From the IMG/VR virus record IMGVR_UViG_3300042392_000195, positions 1-31,623 of that record: 31,623 nucleotides of DNA; one strand, given 5' to 3'. The notes below the pieces were generated by a model. That model did not search any database and had not been told where the DNA came from. It saw only the letters and a list, made by a program, of their open reading frames with translations. Below, piece by piece: positions 20,832 through 29,404 of the stretch. The stretch comes from a virus. A program made the position numbers and the translations under genes. Within the stretch, counting starts at the first letter, position 1; every line of letters begins with the position of its first letter.

Positions 20832-20967
20832 TTTTTAAAAGTTTAAAAAGTGTGTAAGCTATTGATAATATTAATAATGTAATGCGTAGGTAAGTTTCAA
20901 TGTTAGTCATTGATACCGAAAGCGCAAAGCCATTAAATAAATATATCTTATAATCTTGTGGATTCAT
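20809..20967 (-). CDS. Second small membrane protein of lysis region (52 aa)
   Basis: This 52-residue frame runs from ATG 20967 (TAATG overlap with the exported protein gene) to TAA 20809, overlapping the next gene by 23 nt. The TM segment ITLLILSIAYTLFKLL follows FALSVSMTNIETYL, and the tail is basic. I recall similar small single- or two-pass proteins beside holins in Bacteroidota phages. Holin or holin-partner is the best guess. Confidence 0.65.
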   Translation of the reverse strand: MNPQDYKIYLFNGFALSVSMTNIETYLRITLLILSIAYTLFKLLKNDKNEKL

Positions 20968-21341
20968 TAGTCTTGTTTTACAAAGCGTGGATATTGACTA
21001 AGAATATACTCATCTATTGGAGCATTGCTAATTCCCCAAACTGCAACTATTGAAGCCGGAATATAGCAATTAAAATCAGCTAACTGGTTGTTGTTTTTAC
21101 CTCTTAATGTTACATAGGTATTACATCCCTCTCCGTTACTTGATAGGTTGTTAGCAGTCCAACTTAATGACCAAGCAGATTCTCCTTGATAATTAACGAT
21201 AACTGGCTTAATTAAGATACCACCTTTTTGGTAATAAATGGTATCATTTCCGATTATTGCAGTATCACTACTATTTCTAAACATTTGCGCTTTTGTTGAC
21301 AAACTAGCCAACACTAAAACTGATAGGATTATTTTTTTCAT
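20967..21341 (-). CDS. Exported small protein (124 aa)
   Basis: A classical signal peptide (MKKIILSVLVLASLSTKAQ) has a basic start, a hydrophobic core and a cleavage site before Q19, the Bacteroidota style. The mature part, about 105 residues, is beta-rich (DTIYYQKGGILIKPV) with two Cys. No family is recognised. It directly follows another exported protein gene (2 nt apart) and precedes the holin-like genes. It would be in the periplasm or outer surface of the infected cell unless packed into virions. Function unknown. Confidence 0.65.
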   Translation of the reverse strand: MKKIILSVLVLASLSTKAQMFRNSSDTAIIGNDTIYYQKGGILIKPVIVNYQGESAWSLSWTANNLSSNGEGCNTYVTLRGKNNNQLADFNCYIPASIVAVWGISNAPIDEYILSQYPRFVKQD

Positions 21342-21343
21342 AT

Positions 21344-21565
21344 TTACTTTTTTATTTCTTTAGGCTTTGTTGCGATTAATTCATATTTACTTAATGCTTC
21401 TAGTACATAGGTACTTGCTGCTTTGCTATCTAATTGCTTTTGGATTATTGCAATTACGTTTTTAAACATCGTAGTGTCCATCTTAATAATTAAGGTGTCG
21501 GATACTTGACTAAATGCTGCTGACATACTTAATGCCATTACTAGGGTTGTGATTGTTTTTTTCAT
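21344..21565 (-). CDS. Exported small protein (73 aa)
   Basis: The first 19 residues (MKKTITTLVMALSMSAAFS) form a Sec signal ending before Q20. The mature 54 residues are mostly helical with an acidic-basic pattern (DTLIIKMDTTMFKNVIAII). Family unrecognised. It lies 7 nt after the fibre-like gene and 2 nt before the next exported protein, so three consecutive genes carry export signals. Possible periplasmic partner of its neighbours. Confidence 0.6.
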   Translation of the reverse strand: MKKTITTLVMALSMSAAFSQVSDTLIIKMDTTMFKNVIAIIQKQLDSKAASTYVLEALSKYELIATKPKEIKK

Positions 21566-21572
21566 ATTTGAT

Positions 21573-24500
21573 TTATTTGTTTTCTAATGTTTCTATTCTT
21601 TTAATTAATGCTTCATTTTTAGCTGATAGTTCTTGAATAGCCTTTGTTAAAATAGCTATCATACTATTGTACTCAACCCCTGCTAATTTTTTAGTTCCAT
21701 CATTTTCAACATTATAAAAAACTAAATCTTTATTTACCTTCTCAACTTCATCAGCTATGAATCCATACGATGTATTTTCAACTAATTCATCAGTATATTC
21801 ATTAGTTAAATTATCTTTTTTACGATAATTAAATGATACAGGGTTTAGTTGATTAATAAAAGAAACGTTACTTATAGATTGAATATTACCTTTTGATTCT
21901 CTAGTAGATACTAAATAACCTAAACCACCACCACTTTCAATTACCATTGACCTTCCTGTAGTTGGATTATTATATGGAGAATATGAACCTGTGCCTGAAT
22001 TAAAAAATCCATCATTTCTGATATACATTAAATTATCTAAATCTAAACTTCTAACTGCAAAAGCATTTGCTGCACTTGTATTTCCTGCTCCTATAGCCGT
22101 TAATCTTGCAGTATTATAAGTTCCTCCTATTAATACATTGCCCCCACTTGTAATACGCATTCTTTCTGTATTGCTTGTAGCAAATGTTATATTACTTGCA
22201 GTTTCTGCTGTAATTGCAATAAGACCTGTTGTATTATTTAAAAATAAATCATTACCGCTTTGAAATAAATATGATTTACTTGCTCCTCCTACACTTAATG
22301 CTAATAAACTTGAACTTGTACCATTAACATCTAATGTAGTTCTATTTGTAGTAGTAAAATTTGGACTTGTAGTTCCTATTCCTACATTGCCACCTGTTGT
22401 AATAGTCATTCTTGCAGCTTGGTTAGTTCCAAACTGTAAAGCAGTATTTGAAATAGATTGTAAAAGTGTAGCATTAGATAATCCCCCTGTCATTAAATCT
22501 CCTCCTGCATTACTTTCTATTCCATAAGAACCAACTCCTGTAGTATTAGAAACTCTATAAGCATTTACTGCTCCTGTAGTTGCAGCGTTACTGTTAAAGT
22601 TTGCACCTGAACTACCAAAGCTACTTGTTACACTACTAGAGAATGTAGCTGCTCCTGTTAGTGTAGCAACTCTAAAATAAGGGGTTGAACCTAAATTTGA
22701 TAATACAAAATCTCCTGTAACTGCATTATCTCTTCCAAAATCCCAATAGTTCCCACCACCTGCATCTGAACTTCTAATATTACCTTTACCACCTCCACTT
22801 GATGAACCCCCACCATATACAATAAAATTCGGAGTAACACTTGCACCTGTATTAAAAATTGCATTTGTTCCTGTTAATAACCCACTAAACGTTGCACTTG
22901 TCCCACCCAAAGCACCTGTAAGTGTACCACCTGTTAATGGTAGATATCCACTCAATGTAGCAGTAGAAACTTTATTATTAAAAGTAGTCCAATCAGTAGC
23001 TGACAAATAACCATTTGCTGAACCAGTTGCTACAGGAATAGAAATAGTATTTGTAGTCCTTACTAAAGGAGATGAAAATGTTAATACAGATTCTTTACCA
23101 TTAAAAGTACTCCAATCAGTTGAACTTAAATACCCATTTACTGAACTTGATGCAGCAGGTATAGAAATAGCAGGTGTAGTTCCACCTGAAGAAACTATTG
23201 GAGAAGTTCCTGTAACACTTGTTACATAAGTACCTGCAGCTTGATACTGTGGAATATTTAAAGTATTAGAACTAAAGGTTGCTGCTCCACTTGTGCCTGT
23301 AGTAGTTAATGTTATTGCTGCTTGTTTAGAATTAATTGCGCTTTGATATCCGCTAAGCATAGAAGCGGTATCTGAAATATTTAATTTTAAATTTATTCTA
23401 TTACTTAAAGAACTTGTATCAGCCTTTCTTAAGTAAGGACTTAACATAGAAGCAGTATCACTTATATTTAGTTTTAAATTAATTCGGTTACTTAAAGAAG
23501 TTGTATCACTACTTATTGCTTGACTAGATAAAACTCCATTTGCATCTGCCACTACCATACGAGTTCCTGTACCTGAAAGATTTGATATTACTACATTACC
23601 ACCTGCTTTTAATTTCATTACTGGATTAACGTTTGACTCGTTAAAAACCAAATCATTATTGTCAGAAGAGAAATCCCATAATTTATTAGATGAAGATGTA
23701 TTTTGAAATATTAAACCACCATTTGTATTAGTAGTATTCATTAAAATATTACCATTATAACTTCCAACCTGTAAAGCACCAAAATTACCTATTGTAGTAC
23801 TTACACTTACAACGTTTCCGTCATCTTTAATATTACTATTTCCTATGGTAGTTGATGATGTAAATTTAGGAACTGTGTTTGTAGTTCCGATTAGTGCATC
23901 CGCTTTTGCATTGATACGATTTGATAAACTAGCCGTATCAGTATAATTCATTTTATTGCTTACCCTTGCATCTGTATAATATAGATTAGTTCCCTCTGCA
24001 ATGTTTGAAGTAGTGCCTTCTACCTTAGTCCATAAATTAGTAGAAGTTTTGTATTGCAATAAACTGTTATTACTTGGACTTTGTGCAGATACATTATGCA
24101 GTTCATCCATCTCATAACCATTCTGAATCTTTACAGATATAACCCCTTGTGTAGGATGGCTTCTAGTAACAACACCAACATAAACTAAATGCGATGGAGC
24201 ATACTGTTTAGTGCTTGTGAATAAACCTGCAGTTGGACTTAAATATAATTGAGTACCTTCTAAAAAAGCACTTGTAGGCATATCTATTAAATCTCCAATT
24301 ACAATTACATAACCATTTGAATTATCACTTATGTCTGCTTTTACTAAACCAAAAGTTTGTGCAGAAAGACTATCCGATGAAGCTGCTGCTTTTGTAACTG
24401 TTGGTAAATTTCCGTGACCACCATTAATAAAAACAACTGTTCCTTTTGTTAAGGTTGCACCTGTTTCATTATATACTTCTTTAACTAATGTTTCAACCTC

Positions 24501-25814
24501 TGTTACTATACCCTGCATAGTTTGTAAAGCACCAGTACCATCTATATACTGACTTGTATTTCCTGCACCTGTAACTGTTAATGTTCCTGTGCTTGTAACA
24601 GGGCTATTAGTAACACTAAATGCAGATGGCATAGATAAACCTACACTTGTAACCGCACTCTTTAAATACGGACTTAGCATTGCTGCAGTATCTGAATATT
24701 TAACTCGTAAATCAATTCTATTAGACAATGAACTTGTATCCGCTTCCCTAAGATAAGGACTAAGCATTGAAGCAGTATCGCTGATATTAAGTTTTAAATT
24801 TATCCTATTAGATATTGAAGTAGAATCAAAAGTAGGTATAGTCCAAGTACGATTTGCACTTAAATTATAAGTTACCCCATTAATAGTAAGTGTAGTTGCC
24901 TTATCTGCTTTTAAATTAATCCTATTGGATAGGTTAACAGTATCTTCTACTAAAGCTAAAGTTCCAGTTCTTACTGGTAAATTATAATTAAAGGTTGTTA
25001 AATAACCATCGCCTTCTACTGGATAAAGAAAGGTTGCTTGTCTAGACTTTGTTAAATTATTAGGTAAAAGTCTGCTTGTTCTAAAATTAAATGCCTCATT
25101 AGAAGTATATAAAGAAGTATAACCAACTTTATCGCCAATCCCTGCTCCGTTATCTTGAATTTCTACTCCTGCATTTGCAGTTAAAAAAGTACCCGTTAAA
25201 TCATAAACTCCTAAATCAACATCTTTATTTGCCCCAACATATGGCACATAAGCATCACTTAAAGTATCTGAATACTTAGGGATATTTAAAGTATCTCGTA
25301 TTAATGTTGCTGCTCCACTTTTAAAATTAGTAGTTAATTTAATTATATTTTGTTTCTCATCAATTCTCCTAGATAAACTAGCCGTATCTAATTTGCGTAA
25401 ATAAGGCAAAAGCATTGCTGCCGTATCGGAATATTTTACCCTTAAATTAATTCTATTGGATAAAGAAACAGTATCAATAAATTTCATATAAGGCAAAAGC
25501 ATTGCAGCAGTATCACTTATATTTAATTTACCGTTAATTCTATTTGAAATATTAGTACTATCTAAGTTAGCTTTAATCCATTGAAAGCCACTAAAAACAT
25601 ACAAGCCACTATCAGTTACATTATATCTAATTTGTCCGGCATCTCTACCACCTGTTATATTTCTTAACTGATTGATATTCAACGGAATAGTTAACACACT
25701 ATCAAATAACATACGCTTAACAGGACCATATCCTGCCTGTGGCATAGCTTGATAAACCTGTGCTTTTAATCCAAAAGATAATAAAACTAATAATGTTACA
25801 ATGGCACGTCGCAT
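21573..25814 (-). CDS. Fibre-like protein with Sec signal peptide and C-terminal S74 chaperone (1413 aa)
   Basis: The longest gene in the window. Residues 1-18 (MRRAIVTLLVLLSFGLKA) are a signal peptide cleaved before Q19. Next come repeats of the type DTxSLSNRINLKxNISDT in three blocks (about 81-150, 329-388, 767-832). An all-beta module lies at about 430-565, and long Gly/Ser/Thr-rich beta segments follow. The last 110 residues (about 1304-1413) are an S74 intramolecular chaperone: S1303 with Lys five residues on in STRESKGNI (Ser-Lys dyad), SYGFIADEVEK, and a C-terminal coiled coil. S74 domains trimerise fibres and then cleave themselves off. The gene overlaps the tail-completion gene by 19 nt. 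The signal peptide is odd for a virion fibre; an exported surface protein is an alternative. Confidence 0.82.
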   Translation of the reverse strand: MRRAIVTLLVLLSFGLKAQVYQAMPQAGYGPVKRMLFDSVLTIPLNINQLRNITGGRDAGQIRYNVTDSGLYVFSGFQWIKANLDSTNISNRINGKLNISDTAAMLLPYMKFIDTVSLSNRINLRVKYSDTAAMLLPYLRKLDTASLSRRIDEKQNIIKLTTNFKSGAATLIRDTLNIPKYSDTLSDAYVPYVGANKDVDLGVYDLTGTFLTANAGVEIQDNGAGIGDKVGYTSLYTSNEAFNFRTSRLLPNNLTKSRQATFLYPVEGDGYLTTFNYNLPVRTGTLALVEDTVNLSNRINLKADKATTLTINGVTYNLSANRTWTIPTFDSTSISNRINLKLNISDTASMLSPYLREADTSSLSNRIDLRVKYSDTAAMLSPYLKSAVTSVGLSMPSAFSVTNSPVTSTGTLTVTGAGNTSQYIDGTGALQTMQGIVTEVETLVKEVYNETGATLTKGTVVFINGGHGNLPTVTKAAASSDSLSAQTFGLVKADISDNSNGYVIVIGDLIDMPTSAFLEGTQLYLSPTAGLFTSTKQYAPSHLVYVGVVTRSHPTQGVISVKIQNGYEMDELHNVSAQSPSNNSLLQYKTSTNLWTKVEGTTSNIAEGTNLYYTDARVSNKMNYTDTASLSNRINAKADALIGTTNTVPKFTSSTTIGNSNIKDDGNVVSVSTTIGNFGALQVGSYNGNILMNTTNTNGGLIFQNTSSSNKLWDFSSDNNDLVFNESNVNPVMKLKAGGNVVISNLSGTGTRMVVADANGVLSSQAISSDTTSLSNRINLKLNISDTASMLSPYLRKADTSSLSNRINLKLNISDTASMLSGYQSAINSKQAAITLTTTGTSGAATFSSNTLNIPQYQAAGTYVTSVTGTSPIVSSGGTTPAISIPAASSSVNGYLSSTDWSTFNGKESVLTFSSPLVRTTNTISIPVATGSANGYLSATDWTTFNNKVSTATLSGYLPLTGGTLTGALGGTSATFSGLLTGTNAIFNTGASVTPNFIVYGGGSSSGGGKGNIRSSDAGGGNYWDFGRDNAVTGDFVLSNLGSTPYFRVATLTGAATFSSSVTSSFGSSGANFNSNAATTGAVNAYRVSNTTGVGSYGIESNAGGDLMTGGLSNATLLQSISNTALQFGTNQAARMTITTGGNVGIGTTSPNFTTTNRTTLDVNGTSSSLLALSVGGASKSYLFQSGNDLFLNNTTGLIAITAETASNITFATSNTERMRITSGGNVLIGGTYNTARLTAIGAGNTSAANAFAVRSLDLDNLMYIRNDGFFNSGTGSYSPYNNPTTGRSMVIESGGGLGYLVSTRESKGNIQSISNVSFINQLNPVSFNYRKKDNLTNEYTDELVENTSYGFIADEVEKVNKDLVFYNVENDGTKKLAGVEYNSMIAILTKAIQELSAKNEALIKRIETLENK
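23319..23516 (-). repeat. Internal repeat block 3 of fibre-like gene
   Basis: Encodes residues about 767-832, two copies of the DTxSLSNRINLKLNISDTASMLS unit. The same unit recurs in blocks 24651-24830 and 25365-25574, with clear DNA-level similarity (for example the common AAGCAGTATC core). Such repeats can change number by recombination. Confidence 0.7.
24651..24830 (-). repeat. Internal repeat block 2 of fibre-like gene
   Basis: Encodes residues about 329-388, with two units of the same repeat, one in the KYSDTAAML form and one in the NISDTASML form. Confidence 0.7.
25365..25574 (-). repeat. Internal repeat block 1 of fibre-like gene
   Basis: Encodes residues about 81-150, with NISDTAAMLLPYM and KYSDTAAMLLPYL units. 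It lies just after the signal-peptide-bearing N-terminal region. Confidence 0.7.
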
Positions 25815-26271: not shown

Positions 26272-27057
26272 TTATCTTATTGTGAATGAAAATAATTCTC
26301 CTGCTTGTGTTACATCTCCAGTAGGTAAAGTAACTACATTACCAACTATCTGTAAATACATAGGATTTGCAGTAGGTAAGTTTGTAATACCTTTAACTAA
26401 TCCTGACCTCATCGCAATTAATACTACTTTATTAACCAATCCACCAACTGCAAAACTACTATCTCCTGCAGCAGGTGTATGATAAATAGTTGTTGCTCCA
26501 CCGCTTGTTGCATTATTAGAGAATACCCTTACTCCATCATTTACATTGCCTAAATAAATAGGACTTGTATATGCTTTTAATTCAGGGAATATAACATCTA
26601 ATCCGCTGCCTGGATTAAAGTATTCAGAAAATAATAAATAATTCTCTCTTAAATAATTAATTAATCTTTGCTTGTAAAATTCAGCAGTCTTTTTATATTC
26701 ATTACCTATCAACTCTAAATCTGCTCTACTTGGAGCATTGCTTTCTTCACTTGTCTTTTGTAATATCCCCTTACTGAAAAATTGATAACCTAATCCAAAG
26801 GGTAATAAACTCATCGTGTACCATACCAAACAATCCGTAATAAAATTATCTAATAAAGATTTCTCTAAATTAGAAAGGTTTGCAGCCTCTATTCCTGATT
26901 GTAAACGTAGGTATAAAGTACTTCCCAAAGCAGGTTGCAAATAAAGGTCTTGCGCTACTTTAATATGTGGCTTTAATTGTTTACCATCAATAGCATCACT
27001 TATTCCCGTTCTGCTTTTAATTAGATTCTCAGATATGAAAAGTATATTTGCGCTCAT
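26272..27057 (-). CDS. Head-tail adaptor-like protein (261 aa)
   Basis: Residues 1-150 are helical (LFISENLIKSRTGISDA..., then VAQDLYLQPALGSTLY) and resemble the connector/adaptor proteins that dock under the portal in Bacteroidota phages; the segment NLEKSLLDNFITDCLVWYTM is typical. The C-terminal 90 residues are beta-rich. The ATG at 27057 abuts the portal stop (27058) with no gap. A head-completion role is inferred from position plus resemblance. Confidence 0.6.
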   Translation of the reverse strand: MSANILFISENLIKSRTGISDAIDGKQLKPHIKVAQDLYLQPALGSTLYLRLQSGIEAANLSNLEKSLLDNFITDCLVWYTMSLLPFGLGYQFFSKGILQKTSEESNAPSRADLELIGNEYKKTAEFYKQRLINYLRENYLLFSEYFNPGSGLDVIFPELKAYTSPIYLGNVNDGVRVFSNNATSGGATTIYHTPAAGDSSFAVGGLVNKVVLIAMRSGLVKGITNLPTANPMYLQIVGNVVTLPTGDVTQAGELFSFTIR

Positions 27058-29046
27058 TTATTTTTTCTTTTGAATTATTAATGCCTTCCATTCGTGTCTG
27101 CATTGTGTTTCTATTATGCCATCATTATTCCAAAATCCACCAACTCTATCAAATACCGAATAACCTAATGCAGCACTCATTTGTTCTATTCTTGCCCTTG
27201 ACCATAATTTAGTCTTCGCAAGTTCCATCATTTTAACGCAAAATAAACGAGATGGATGAGCAGGTGTATTTCTTTCTGAACTTGGTACAATGCTTCTCCA
27301 AGCATAAGTGTAAGCAATAGATAATAAGTTTTTAGGCTTAGGAGCATCCGCCTCTACATTTGTTCTCACTCTTTCAATAACTACATCTTTACCAACCTTA
27401 ACCTCTTTAACATCTAATATCTTATTGTCAACTAAACTTTGCAAGGCTGCCTCTACAACCTTCATATCTTGCTTTAAAACCTCTGCAAGTCCTTCGCTAT
27501 TGATTCTCTTATCCTTCTTGATATAGCCCAAAATATCGGCTTCTAATTGGCTTAGCTGCTTAACCTCTGCAAAGTGATTAAATTCTCTTGCTGATTTTTC
27601 GCTTAAGACCTCATAATCTGCCAAATCATCACTAAACTTTTCAAACATTTCTACCAACTCCATTTCTTTGTCATCACTAGAAAATGTAGCAGGGTCTGAA
27701 TCCAAACCTAAAAAAGTATTTACATCTGCATCCGTAAATGCAAATCCATTCTTTAACATTAATGCAGCTTGTTCTTTAGAAAGTTTACCATTAGTAAACT
27801 GCCTTACAATCCTCATTACGTTTTGATATTGTCTACCTGTAAGATTCTTAATAGAATCATTTGAAGCAGCAATAGGTTGGTCAGTTGGATTAGCTGTTGG
27901 ATTTTCAGTAGAAACAGGAGCAGCCATTTCAGATGCTAAACCTAATTTTTCTCTAATTTCTTCCCTAGTCATATTAGCAGCCATTACTGCCTCACTAAAT
28001 TCAAAACTTAATGGTTCTACTGGTATCAATTCATAATCTCCTTTAATACCTACATAATCAAATAATTGATTAAATACTTCCTCAATCGCTTGTTGTCTTT
28101 CGTTAACATAAGTATTAGCAAATATCTTATACGCATCCCTTATCTCTGTTGAACCGCCAAGCTGACCTTCAGTCTTAATACCAAACAATGAAGGCGAAGT
28201 AACCTGATGACAGGCAAATATTTCTTGCTGAATTAAATTATTTACGTTTGTAAAATCTTCTTTAGTTAACATTGTAGACGATAAAGGCAAAATCTCTGCA
28301 CTATTATCTTTTGACTTGTTAAACATAATAACAACCCTATCGCCTTCGCTACCTGTGAATTTCTTTTTGATTCCTCTTTCAACTGCCTCTTTTGCTTCCT
28401 CTGCAGGTTCGCCACCATTTAAATTAATTAAAGTGGTAGCAACAAAACCGTCTTTAGCATTACCTAAAATATGTCTACTTACCTGAACATCACTCTCAAT
28501 GTAATTTAAACCTTGAAAGTAATTAGGTAAAGGGTAGATATCAGACTTTGGATTGTATTGTTTAACAAATAAAACCTGACTTGCTACTGGGTCGTTAATA
28601 TTAAAAGCAGGATAATGTCTAGGCTTCTCTTTATTATCTGACCAATCGTTTTTAACTTGAAATTCGTTTTGCTCTTTATTAGTCCTAACTTTATGATACT
28701 CAAGATGATACACATCTTTAATCTGACCTAGTAAATTATATATAACTTGTAGATAATAACCTCCGAAAAGTTCATCATCTAAAATACATTTTTTAGTAAT
28801 TTGATTCCACGTTTCTCCCTTAGTGTTTGCCTTCTGTTCAATACCATCCCATCCTTGACCGAAAATATAATTCGTTTTGCTTTTAATGATTGCACCGTGT
28901 TTTGGACTTTCATTAAATAAACCAATTAAATATTCAGGATAGTTATTATTGCCACCAAATTCAACATAACCCTTTGCCCTCTTTTCTTCAAATCGTGGTT
29001 GCTCCGCTTGTGCGAATTTTATTGTGATAATATTCTTATAGTCCAT
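27058..29046 (-). CDS. Portal protein with C-terminal winged-helix and CRHxW extension (662 aa)
   Basis: Residues about 20-370 (counting from the 29091 frame) carry portal features: NYPEYLIGLF, the SDVQVSRHI and KDGFVATTL helices, and HQVTSPSLFGIKTEGQL near the end of the clip/crown. After about 516 there is a winged-helix-like domain (LEADILGYIKKDKRINSEGL), then an 88-residue tail ending in GFWNNDGIIETQCRHEWK, a MuF-like CRHxW motif. The frame extends upstream to a TTG at 29091, but that overlaps the preceding gene by 56 nt; the ATG at 29046 overlaps by 11 nt and is preferred. The portal is the dodecameric DNA channel. The fused domains are unusual. Confidence 0.85.
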   Translation of the reverse strand: MDYKNIITIKFAQAEQPRFEEKRAKGYVEFGGNNNYPEYLIGLFNESPKHGAIIKSKTNYIFGQGWDGIEQKANTKGETWNQITKKCILDDELFGGYYLQVIYNLLGQIKDVYHLEYHKVRTNKEQNEFQVKNDWSDNKEKPRHYPAFNINDPVASQVLFVKQYNPKSDIYPLPNYFQGLNYIESDVQVSRHILGNAKDGFVATTLINLNGGEPAEEAKEAVERGIKKKFTGSEGDRVVIMFNKSKDNSAEILPLSSTMLTKEDFTNVNNLIQQEIFACHQVTSPSLFGIKTEGQLGGSTEIRDAYKIFANTYVNERQQAIEEVFNQLFDYVGIKGDYELIPVEPLSFEFSEAVMAANMTREEIREKLGLASEMAAPVSTENPTANPTDQPIAASNDSIKNLTGRQYQNVMRIVRQFTNGKLSKEQAALMLKNGFAFTDADVNTFLGLDSDPATFSSDDKEMELVEMFEKFSDDLADYEVLSEKSAREFNHFAEVKQLSQLEADILGYIKKDKRINSEGLAEVLKQDMKVVEAALQSLVDNKILDVKEVKVGKDVVIERVRTNVEADAPKPKNLLSIAYTYAWRSIVPSSERNTPAHPSRLFCVKMMELAKTKLWSRARIEQMSAALGYSVFDRVGGFWNNDGIIETQCRHEWKALIIQKKK

Positions 29047-29404
29047 AAGTGACGAAATTATTATTTTGTTCTTCGTATTTAGTAGGTTCAAAAGGTGTAG
29101 CAGGATTCAAAAACATATACCCCTCTTCAAGAATTAATCCACTAACTGTTAAATCTCCTGAACTTACTTTTTGGTGTATTGTATAACCCCAAAATCCTTC
29201 TTCTTTTAAATCGAAATAATTATTAACTGTAAATGCAAAACTATCGTATCTACCGGTAATACTTTGATTTGTAGCCATCAATTTAACAACATCGCCCGTT
29301 ACTCTGTGGATAAACACAAATAAAAAGTAAGGATTGCTAATGGTAGCCTTCTCAGTAGCCGTAAAATAAATAGTCTGTGTAAGTCCTTTTGTTAAATTAA
29401 TCAT
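29036..29404 (-). CDS. Virion-associated small protein (122 aa)
   Basis: The 122-residue product is beta-rich with aromatic residues (FLFVFIHRVTGDVV, then EGFWGYTIHQK). Homologous-looking proteins lie next to portal genes in Bacteroidota phages; no function is known to me. Its ATG at 29404 lies just 3 nt beyond the terminator T-run, so its leader is the terminator itself and expression depends on read-through. It overlaps the portal start by 11 nt. Confidence 0.55.
   Translation of the reverse strand: MINLTKGLTQTIYFTATEKATISNPYFLFVFIHRVTGDVVKLMATNQSITGRYDSFAFTVNNYFDLKEEGFWGYTIHQKVSSGDLTVSGLILEEGYMFLNPATPFEPTKYEEQNNNFVTYGL

Follow-up and report, generated by a model that had tools for sequence, protein, structure and literature searches.

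According to standard teaching, the virions of tailed phages are assembled in the cytoplasm, and to our knowledge all described phage fibres fold there and are made without a signal peptide (SP). The P22 tailspike and the T4 fibre can join completed particles late, even in vitro, and differ from the route proposed below in that their proteins never leave the cytoplasm before lysis. The present analysis concerns a 31.6-kb phage record from IMG/VR (IMGVR_UViG_3300042392_000195, positions 1 to 31,623; this whole stretch is henceforth the window), in which three open reading frames (ORFs), all on the minus strand, encode a fibre-like protein of 1413 amino acids (aa; P0001) and two small proteins, P0002 and P0003, each with a predicted Sec SP.

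Like the S74 tail fibres (e.g. 6f45), the window fibre is long and repetitive and ends in an S74 domain, and like gp52 of Cellulophaga phage phi18:1, itself not an S74 protein, it is encoded after head-tail connector genes. It differs by its SP from phi18:1 gp52, phi38:1 gp085 (S74) and phiST gp030; the premise of an earlier sequence-only reading, that phage fibres normally lack signals, thus held for the flavophage fibres inspected, and the Cellulophaga virion proteins, having no SP, were rejected as a precedent. The portions available of the phi18:1 study place gp52 in free virions (PMC13288928). Closer in one respect are five Q-rule genes of Porphyromonas gingivalis phages and prophages, listed with function unknown in the accessible sections of PMC10367356: they are likewise phage-coded with an SP cut before Gln, but those sections describe no fibre, motif or cassette. 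SPs are also mentioned, in a single sentence of the available text, for lyase-domain proteins of Cellulophaga phages Ingeline and Nekkels, large flavophage proteins that are possibly fibre- or spike-like (PMC8776804); no conservation or assembly argument accompanies that sentence. Phage proteins of diversity-generating retroelements are given as lacking detectable signal peptides in the excerpt available of PMC6199706. A literature search with subscription papers and preprints outside its scope returned no paper that treats SP-bearing fibres as a class of their own or as a conserved route of assembly.

The three window precursors begin with MRRAIVTLLVLLSFGLKA (fibre), MKKTITTLVMALSMSAAFS (P0002) and MKKIILSVLVLASLSTKA (P0003) and continue, after the predicted cut, with QVYQ, QVSD and QMFR, respectively. 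Each combines a basic N-terminus, a hydrophobic core, a small residue before the cut and Gln at +1, in line with Sec export and signal peptidase I cleavage under the Bacteroidetes Q-rule, Gln directly after the cut, as given in the available part of PMC10653852. The observation of the sequence-only reading, an SP with a cut site before Gln in each of the three proteins, was borne out. SP calls were made with a rule-based score of our own, not SignalP; the only other window ORFs of at least 50 aa that score are two neighbours, the holin-like 63-aa ORF and the spanin-like lipoprotein. No lipobox with Cys at +1 occurs in the fibre, P0002 or P0003, Gln following the cut in each, which sets them apart from surface lipoproteins, T5 Llp-like exclusion lipoproteins included, and no Pfam family for a type IX secretion system (T9SS) C-terminal secretion domain was matched by P0001-P0003 at E 0.001. 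The predicted cut of the fibre exposes a Gln that would become pyroglutamate in the Q-rule and glutaminyl cyclase pathway, a host pathway in the text available (PMC10653852) and here apparently used by a phage fibre.

The cleanest test of conservation used loci picked by a DNA pattern for the mature motif QVYQx[ML]PQxGY alone, which matched at least 119 IMG/VR stretches, 118 of which were read as loci. An SP ends exactly at the motif in 117 of the 118, with 73 distinct SP strings; in the lone exception, L467, the contig ends 29 bases upstream of the motif. Control ORFs from the same loci score as SPs in 36 of 858 cases (4.2%). Among 23 representatives, obtained by reducing 68 loci found through the adaptor domain described below, entropy is about 1.2-3.1 bits over the last 16 SP columns and 0 at Q+1, Y+3, Q+4, P+7, Q+8, G+10 and Y+11. 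An earlier scan, limited to the best 80 of 519 relatives, was pooled with the P0003 loci in an ORF survey (n=97; some contigs were fetched twice, and ORFs cut at the 5' end were left out): ORFs with the fibre N-terminus carry an SP in 24 of 24 complete-start cases, against 0 of 73 for ORFs matching only later parts of P0001 (from residue 246 on). With the N-terminal alignment as query, a wider scan reached 42 loci, among them some whose SPs are quite different. The predicted SP of the fibre is, from these comparisons, a constant trait of a large family of uncultured phages, and the observation is more general than the sequence-only reading could see. As the SPs diverge while the new N-terminus is nearly invariant, use and cleavage of the SP are strongly implied. 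The Gln at +1 may be owed to the peptidase; this is probably not so for the remaining invariant residues of the motif, and the freed N-terminus therefore seems to have a job.

The body of P0001 resembles a fibre, as the sequence-only reading had noted. It is composed of repeats of the SDTAxMLxPYLRKxDTxSLSNRINxK type, contains no cysteine in its 1413 residues, and ends in an S74 domain (Pfam PF13884, E 2.7e-7, residues 1305-1365), which also matches the long tail fibre distal subunit 6f45 (E 0.0017). The mid-domain (residues 371-617) recurs in proteins of other phages that have no SP; several of these are labelled tail fibre, as are most matches in the phage collection, and the corresponding region of a related fibre, that of G008, matches Phage_cement_2 (PF09956). 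PHROGs gave no match for the fibre, P0002 or P0003. In G001, a 35.5-kb relative that is probably complete because it has the portal gene at both ends (its IMG/VR label is linear), the SP fibre is the only fibre-like gene, although receptor binding could still be the task of one of the two long tail proteins, of 382 and 676 aa.

The gene products upstream offer a candidate partner. The last ~72 residues of the DUF6712 protein, here called the adaptor domain, match a gene of G006, a 115-kb phage record, with 53% identity over 72 aa (E 1e-22); there the adaptor has a gene of its own (132 aa), immediately followed by an SP fibre of this type. In an adaptor-domain scan limited to the best 80 of 102 loci, 12 had no downstream ORF of 200 aa in the available DNA, and in all 68 testable loci that remain the nearest downstream ORF of this size encodes an SP fibre bearing the motif. 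Conversely, the adaptor domain lies no more than 2.2 kb upstream in all 97 motif-chosen loci with at least 1300 bases upstream.

A comparable arrangement was found in Bacteroidota prophages. A baseplate gene of the G710 prophage, searched in 395 Bacteroidota genomes, gave 13 rows in 11 genomes, and these regions were read. Some fibres of contractile prophages are long and SP-less and start with a base domain of ~70 aa; in G184, G101, G136 and G710 this domain is a separate gene of 129-148 aa, followed by an SP fibre. G710, not an unbiased case because it was found through P0003, has two SP fibres after the base; in the second, the SP begins at an internal Met. The fused G216 fibre, which has no SP, shares a homologous C-terminus with the SP fibre of G710 (E 1e-4). 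A base-domain survey covered 196 and 198 genomes of two orders, with duplicates and one open ORF removed; stand-alone base ORFs before SP fibres measured 129-205 aa. With strong matches (E <=1e-20), an SP-bearing neighbour follows 5 of 7 short bases and 0 of 18 long ORFs (3 further long ORFs had no neighbour; Fisher p 0.0004), and with all matches (E <=1e-3) 6 of 13 short versus 2 of 51 long (10 further long ORFs without neighbour; p 0.0005), the genomes not being independent and the 210-aa length cut having been set post hoc. The same base domain (WF.TG..PTQ.QFW..WDSF.HKD) was also seen in tandem arrays and beside large 'LFRFVSLRNPQLTE' proteins in Bacteroidota genomes (L316, L317, L322-L324, L329-L331, L337 and L339); these are perhaps contractile injection systems.

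The small exported proteins travel with the fibre. P0003 has an SP in 31 of 31 P0003 loci on viral contigs and P0002 in 28 of 31, the exceptions being L112, which lacks the gene, L107, where it is cut by the contig end, and L085, where none was seen in the 285 bases upstream. The order fibre, P0002, P0003, 52-aa ORF, holin-like, spanin-like is conserved in relatives, with the endolysin next in the window. A P0003 homologue follows an SP fibre immediately, or with one exported gene in between, in four tail contexts: the window clade, G008, G393 and G710. G008 is contractile by gene content, and its fibre, which has the P0003 homologue behind it, appears to cross the record end. The G393 prophage adjoins tRNA-Arg and encodes a 1400-aa S74-like SP fibre, an exported 298-aa protein and then the P0003 homologue (profile E 4e-22); a viral scan with the latter found no relative. 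In L232, P2-like and P0003-like proteins both have SPs, and the fibre is cut off. The predicted P0003 structure is fair and has a usable core (pLDDT 73 on average, with block means of 74-91 for residues 41-124); in a search for a fold like that of solved chaperones or adhesins, with Tfa/gp38-type fibre chaperones in mind, no PDB match reached E 0.001. Beyond two close homologues, its nearest neighbours in BFVD are uncharacterised phage proteins of 79-97 aa, a length with little room for an SP. Cysteines C73 and C92 are invariant in 15 aligned close relatives and absent from the SP-less versions of L143 and G710, which fits folding in an oxidising compartment; that reading is weakened by the G008 version, with only one of the two, and the SP-bearing G393 version, with neither. 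P0002 shares 11-17% identity in one alignment with the P2-like protein that G008 encodes behind its fibre and with P2-like proteins of hosts, and we claim no homology there; for P0003 and the LEIPDI-type gene that follows other SP fibres, homology was rejected (hhalign probability 0.6). Small exported proteins 54-55% identical to the G008 P2-like protein occur on Bacteroidota metagenome-assembled contigs (L198:135-389 and L199:7015-7269), that of L199 directly following a 1167-aa exported Fib_succ_major protein. A further SP protein of G008, of 142 aa and beginning MKNFILSFIAIFAFAVVNAQSTSPRFG..., is encoded with a probable capsid gene on one side and a sheath-like gene on the other (G008:C1:29764-30192; L190).

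Of the two routes offered by the sequence-only reading, an exported surface protein or a fibre with an unusual assembly, the export common to both is well supported by the comparative evidence, and we lean to the second because of the body domains shared with SP-less fibres, the co-travelling adaptor, the split base and distal genes and the lack of a detected T9SS or lipoprotein anchor. The SPs and their conservation, the exact junction, the adaptor and the split fibres can be read from the sequences; from them we infer actual export, periplasmic trimerisation, the docking partner and the timing at lysis. On balance, we judge it somewhat probable that the fibre is a virion part which leaves the cytoplasm through the host Sec system, loses its SP so that Gln becomes the N-terminus, and attaches to the particle at or after lysis. 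It would be made as a Sec precursor, moved to the periplasm and cut by signal peptidase I before Gln19, with the S74 domain helping it to trimerise outside the cytoplasm. When the envelope is breached by holin, endolysin and spanin, the mature N-terminus QVYQAMPQAGYGPVKR... would dock on a particle-borne adaptor domain; the likeliest candidate is the C-terminal domain of the DUF6712 connector, whose gene lies immediately upstream. P0002 and P0003 might then be exported fibre accessories, acting as chaperone, clamp or tip.

Several observations weigh against a virion fibre of this kind. The 66 DUF6712 parts compared form one cluster (58-100% identical), so that co-occurrence of adaptor and fibre is mostly common descent, and only G006 is a clear separate case. 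Next to an SP fibre, the P0003 homologue of the contractile G710 prophage is SP-less (82 aa), as is the version beside SP fibres in L143/L144 (E 3e-5), and such partners would start in different compartments. The SP-less virion fibres of isolated flavophages indicate that export is not necessary in this phylum. Besides the post hoc length cut, the strong short-base cases G295 and the second base in G552 have an SP-less neighbour, and the isolate Flavobacterium phage fF4 has a stand-alone base followed by an SP-less distal protein. The N-domain of the fibre, P0003 and the DUF6712 protein had no relatives in 50,697 phage records. Weak N-domain matches (E 3e-4 to 0.01) occur in 16 of 395 Bacteroidota genomes, and of seven such loci opened, several encode exported surface-type proteins. 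Finally, the AlphaFold model of the N-domain is too poor to use (pLDDT 58.6).

The weak host matches also bear on the explanation that the fibre and its two neighbours are exported proteins of the host envelope which never enter the virion; as a fibre-like receptor binder on or in the envelope of the infected cell, the fibre would hide receptors and so block superinfection, keep freshly released phage from sticking to debris, or serve as an adhesin. It would account for SPs on all three products and for P2-like exported proteins in host genomes, once beside the Fib_succ_major protein, and Q-rule phage proteins have been proposed to modify host outer membranes in the portions available of PMC10367356. 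We nevertheless regard it as rather unlikely. It leaves G001 without any fibre gene, the body domains are those of SP-less phage fibres, the adaptor domain that travels with the fibre belongs to a gene of the structural region, and neither T9SS domain nor lipobox is present; moreover, the N-terminal query found no relative in genome_contigs (one genome per species, 84,980 species; exact short patterns only). We give little credence to a role of the three proteins as exported lysis helpers that loosen the outer membrane or bind cell-wall material, which their conserved position just before the holin-like and spanin-like genes and the lack of a known family for P0002 and P0003 might suggest: a repetitive fibre of 1249-1561 aa would be a poor lysis helper, fibre genes commonly adjoin lysis genes in phages, and in G008, G393 and G710 it is tail or baseplate genes that precede the cassette, which has other neighbours there. 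That the SP is unused, with translation starting at the in-frame Met24 (the refuting case named by the sequence-only reading) or with a hydrophobic N-terminus that stays attached in the virion and acts on membranes or in trimerisation, is very improbable, since motif position 6, the site of Met24, is occupied by Leu in 2 of 23 representatives whereas 117 of 118 loci have the SP upstream of it, the 73 distinct SPs retain charge, hydrophobic core and cut site ahead of a fixed sequence, and Gln stands at +1 in 23 of 23.

Coordinates of the fibre locus and neighbouring features in the window
Feature	Position	Strand	Basis or remark
P0001 fibre, 1413 aa	21573..25814	-	Sec SP, repeats, mid-domain, C-terminal S74 chaperone domain
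Fibre predicted SP, residues 1-18	25761..25814	-	SP score; conserved in relatives
Fibre predicted mature N-terminus QVYQAMPQAGY, residues 19-29	25728..25760	-	Nearly invariant motif; candidate docking peptide
Fibre mid-domain, residues 371-617	23964..24704	-	Common to SP-less phage fibres
S74 intramolecular chaperone domain, residues 1305-1365	21720..21902	-	Pfam PF13884; 6f45
P0002, predicted exported, 73 aa, SP residues 1-19, then short predicted soluble part	21344..21565	-	
P0003, predicted exported, 124 aa, SP residues 1-18; Cys at C73, C92	20967..21341	-	
DUF6712 protein	26272..27057	-	Probable head-tail connector, by position
Adaptor domain, C-terminal ~72 aa of DUF6712 protein	26275-26490	-	Found upstream of same-type SP fibres
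Portal gene	27058-29091	-	Among connector-type genes 5' of fibre
Neck/tail-completion-like gene, 143 aa	25796..26227	-	Function from position only
Holin-like membrane protein, 63 aa	20640..20831	-	Function inferred
Spanin-like lipoprotein, 167 aa	20153..20656	-	Function inferred
Endolysin (Phage_lysozyme), 149 aa	19707..20156	-	Family match

On the minus strand the genes follow in the order portal, DUF6712, 143-aa gene, fibre, P0002, P0003, 52-aa ORF, holin-like, spanin-like and endolysin. The 143-aa gene sits between the adaptor-bearing gene and the fibre and has 19 bases in common with the start of the latter. A 689-aa tail protein ORF is open at the window start (window:1-2067); in G001 a tape measure gene lies just past this position, outside the window. 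By eye, methyltransferase-like, glycosyltransferase-like and other accessory genes occupy window:6103-10109, upstream of the terminase genes. Elsewhere, an SP-less 318-aa fibre-like protein of G006 (L149:1133-2089) and an SP fibre of G007 (L150:6001-8220) have, by eye, a similar C-terminal domain, which hints that tips move between SP-less and SP fibres. Beta-helix (pectate-lyase-like) proteins of ~700-960 aa, SP-bearing or SP-like, occur in the SP-fibre cassette of L263 (G101:C35) and of the IMG/VR loci L150, L151 and L152, and are possible exported depolymerases; the SP candidate of the L150 protein was seen by eye and was not called by the SP score, while its L151 homologue scored.

More tentatively, and with somewhat less than even confidence, we propose an assembly split by the inner membrane. 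Capsid, tail and docking adaptor would be built in the cytoplasm, whereas Sec-secreted fibres would be stored in the periplasm, matured by signal peptidase and possibly glutaminyl cyclase, and the two would meet only at lysis with the cut N-terminus as plug; the module of base or adaptor, SP fibre and exported helpers would have spread among long-tailed, contractile and other Bacteroidota phages. Set against cytoplasmic assembly as taught, an SP fibre family whose conservation starts exactly at the cut opens a different route to direct test, by N-terminal proteomics. Should that route be real, fibre parts of a phage would be able to fold and mature in the periplasm, the freed N-terminus would be a simple candidate docking peptide for studying fibre attachment, and the assumption that a signal peptide means a host protein would be the wrong filter when annotating Bacteroidota phage genes.

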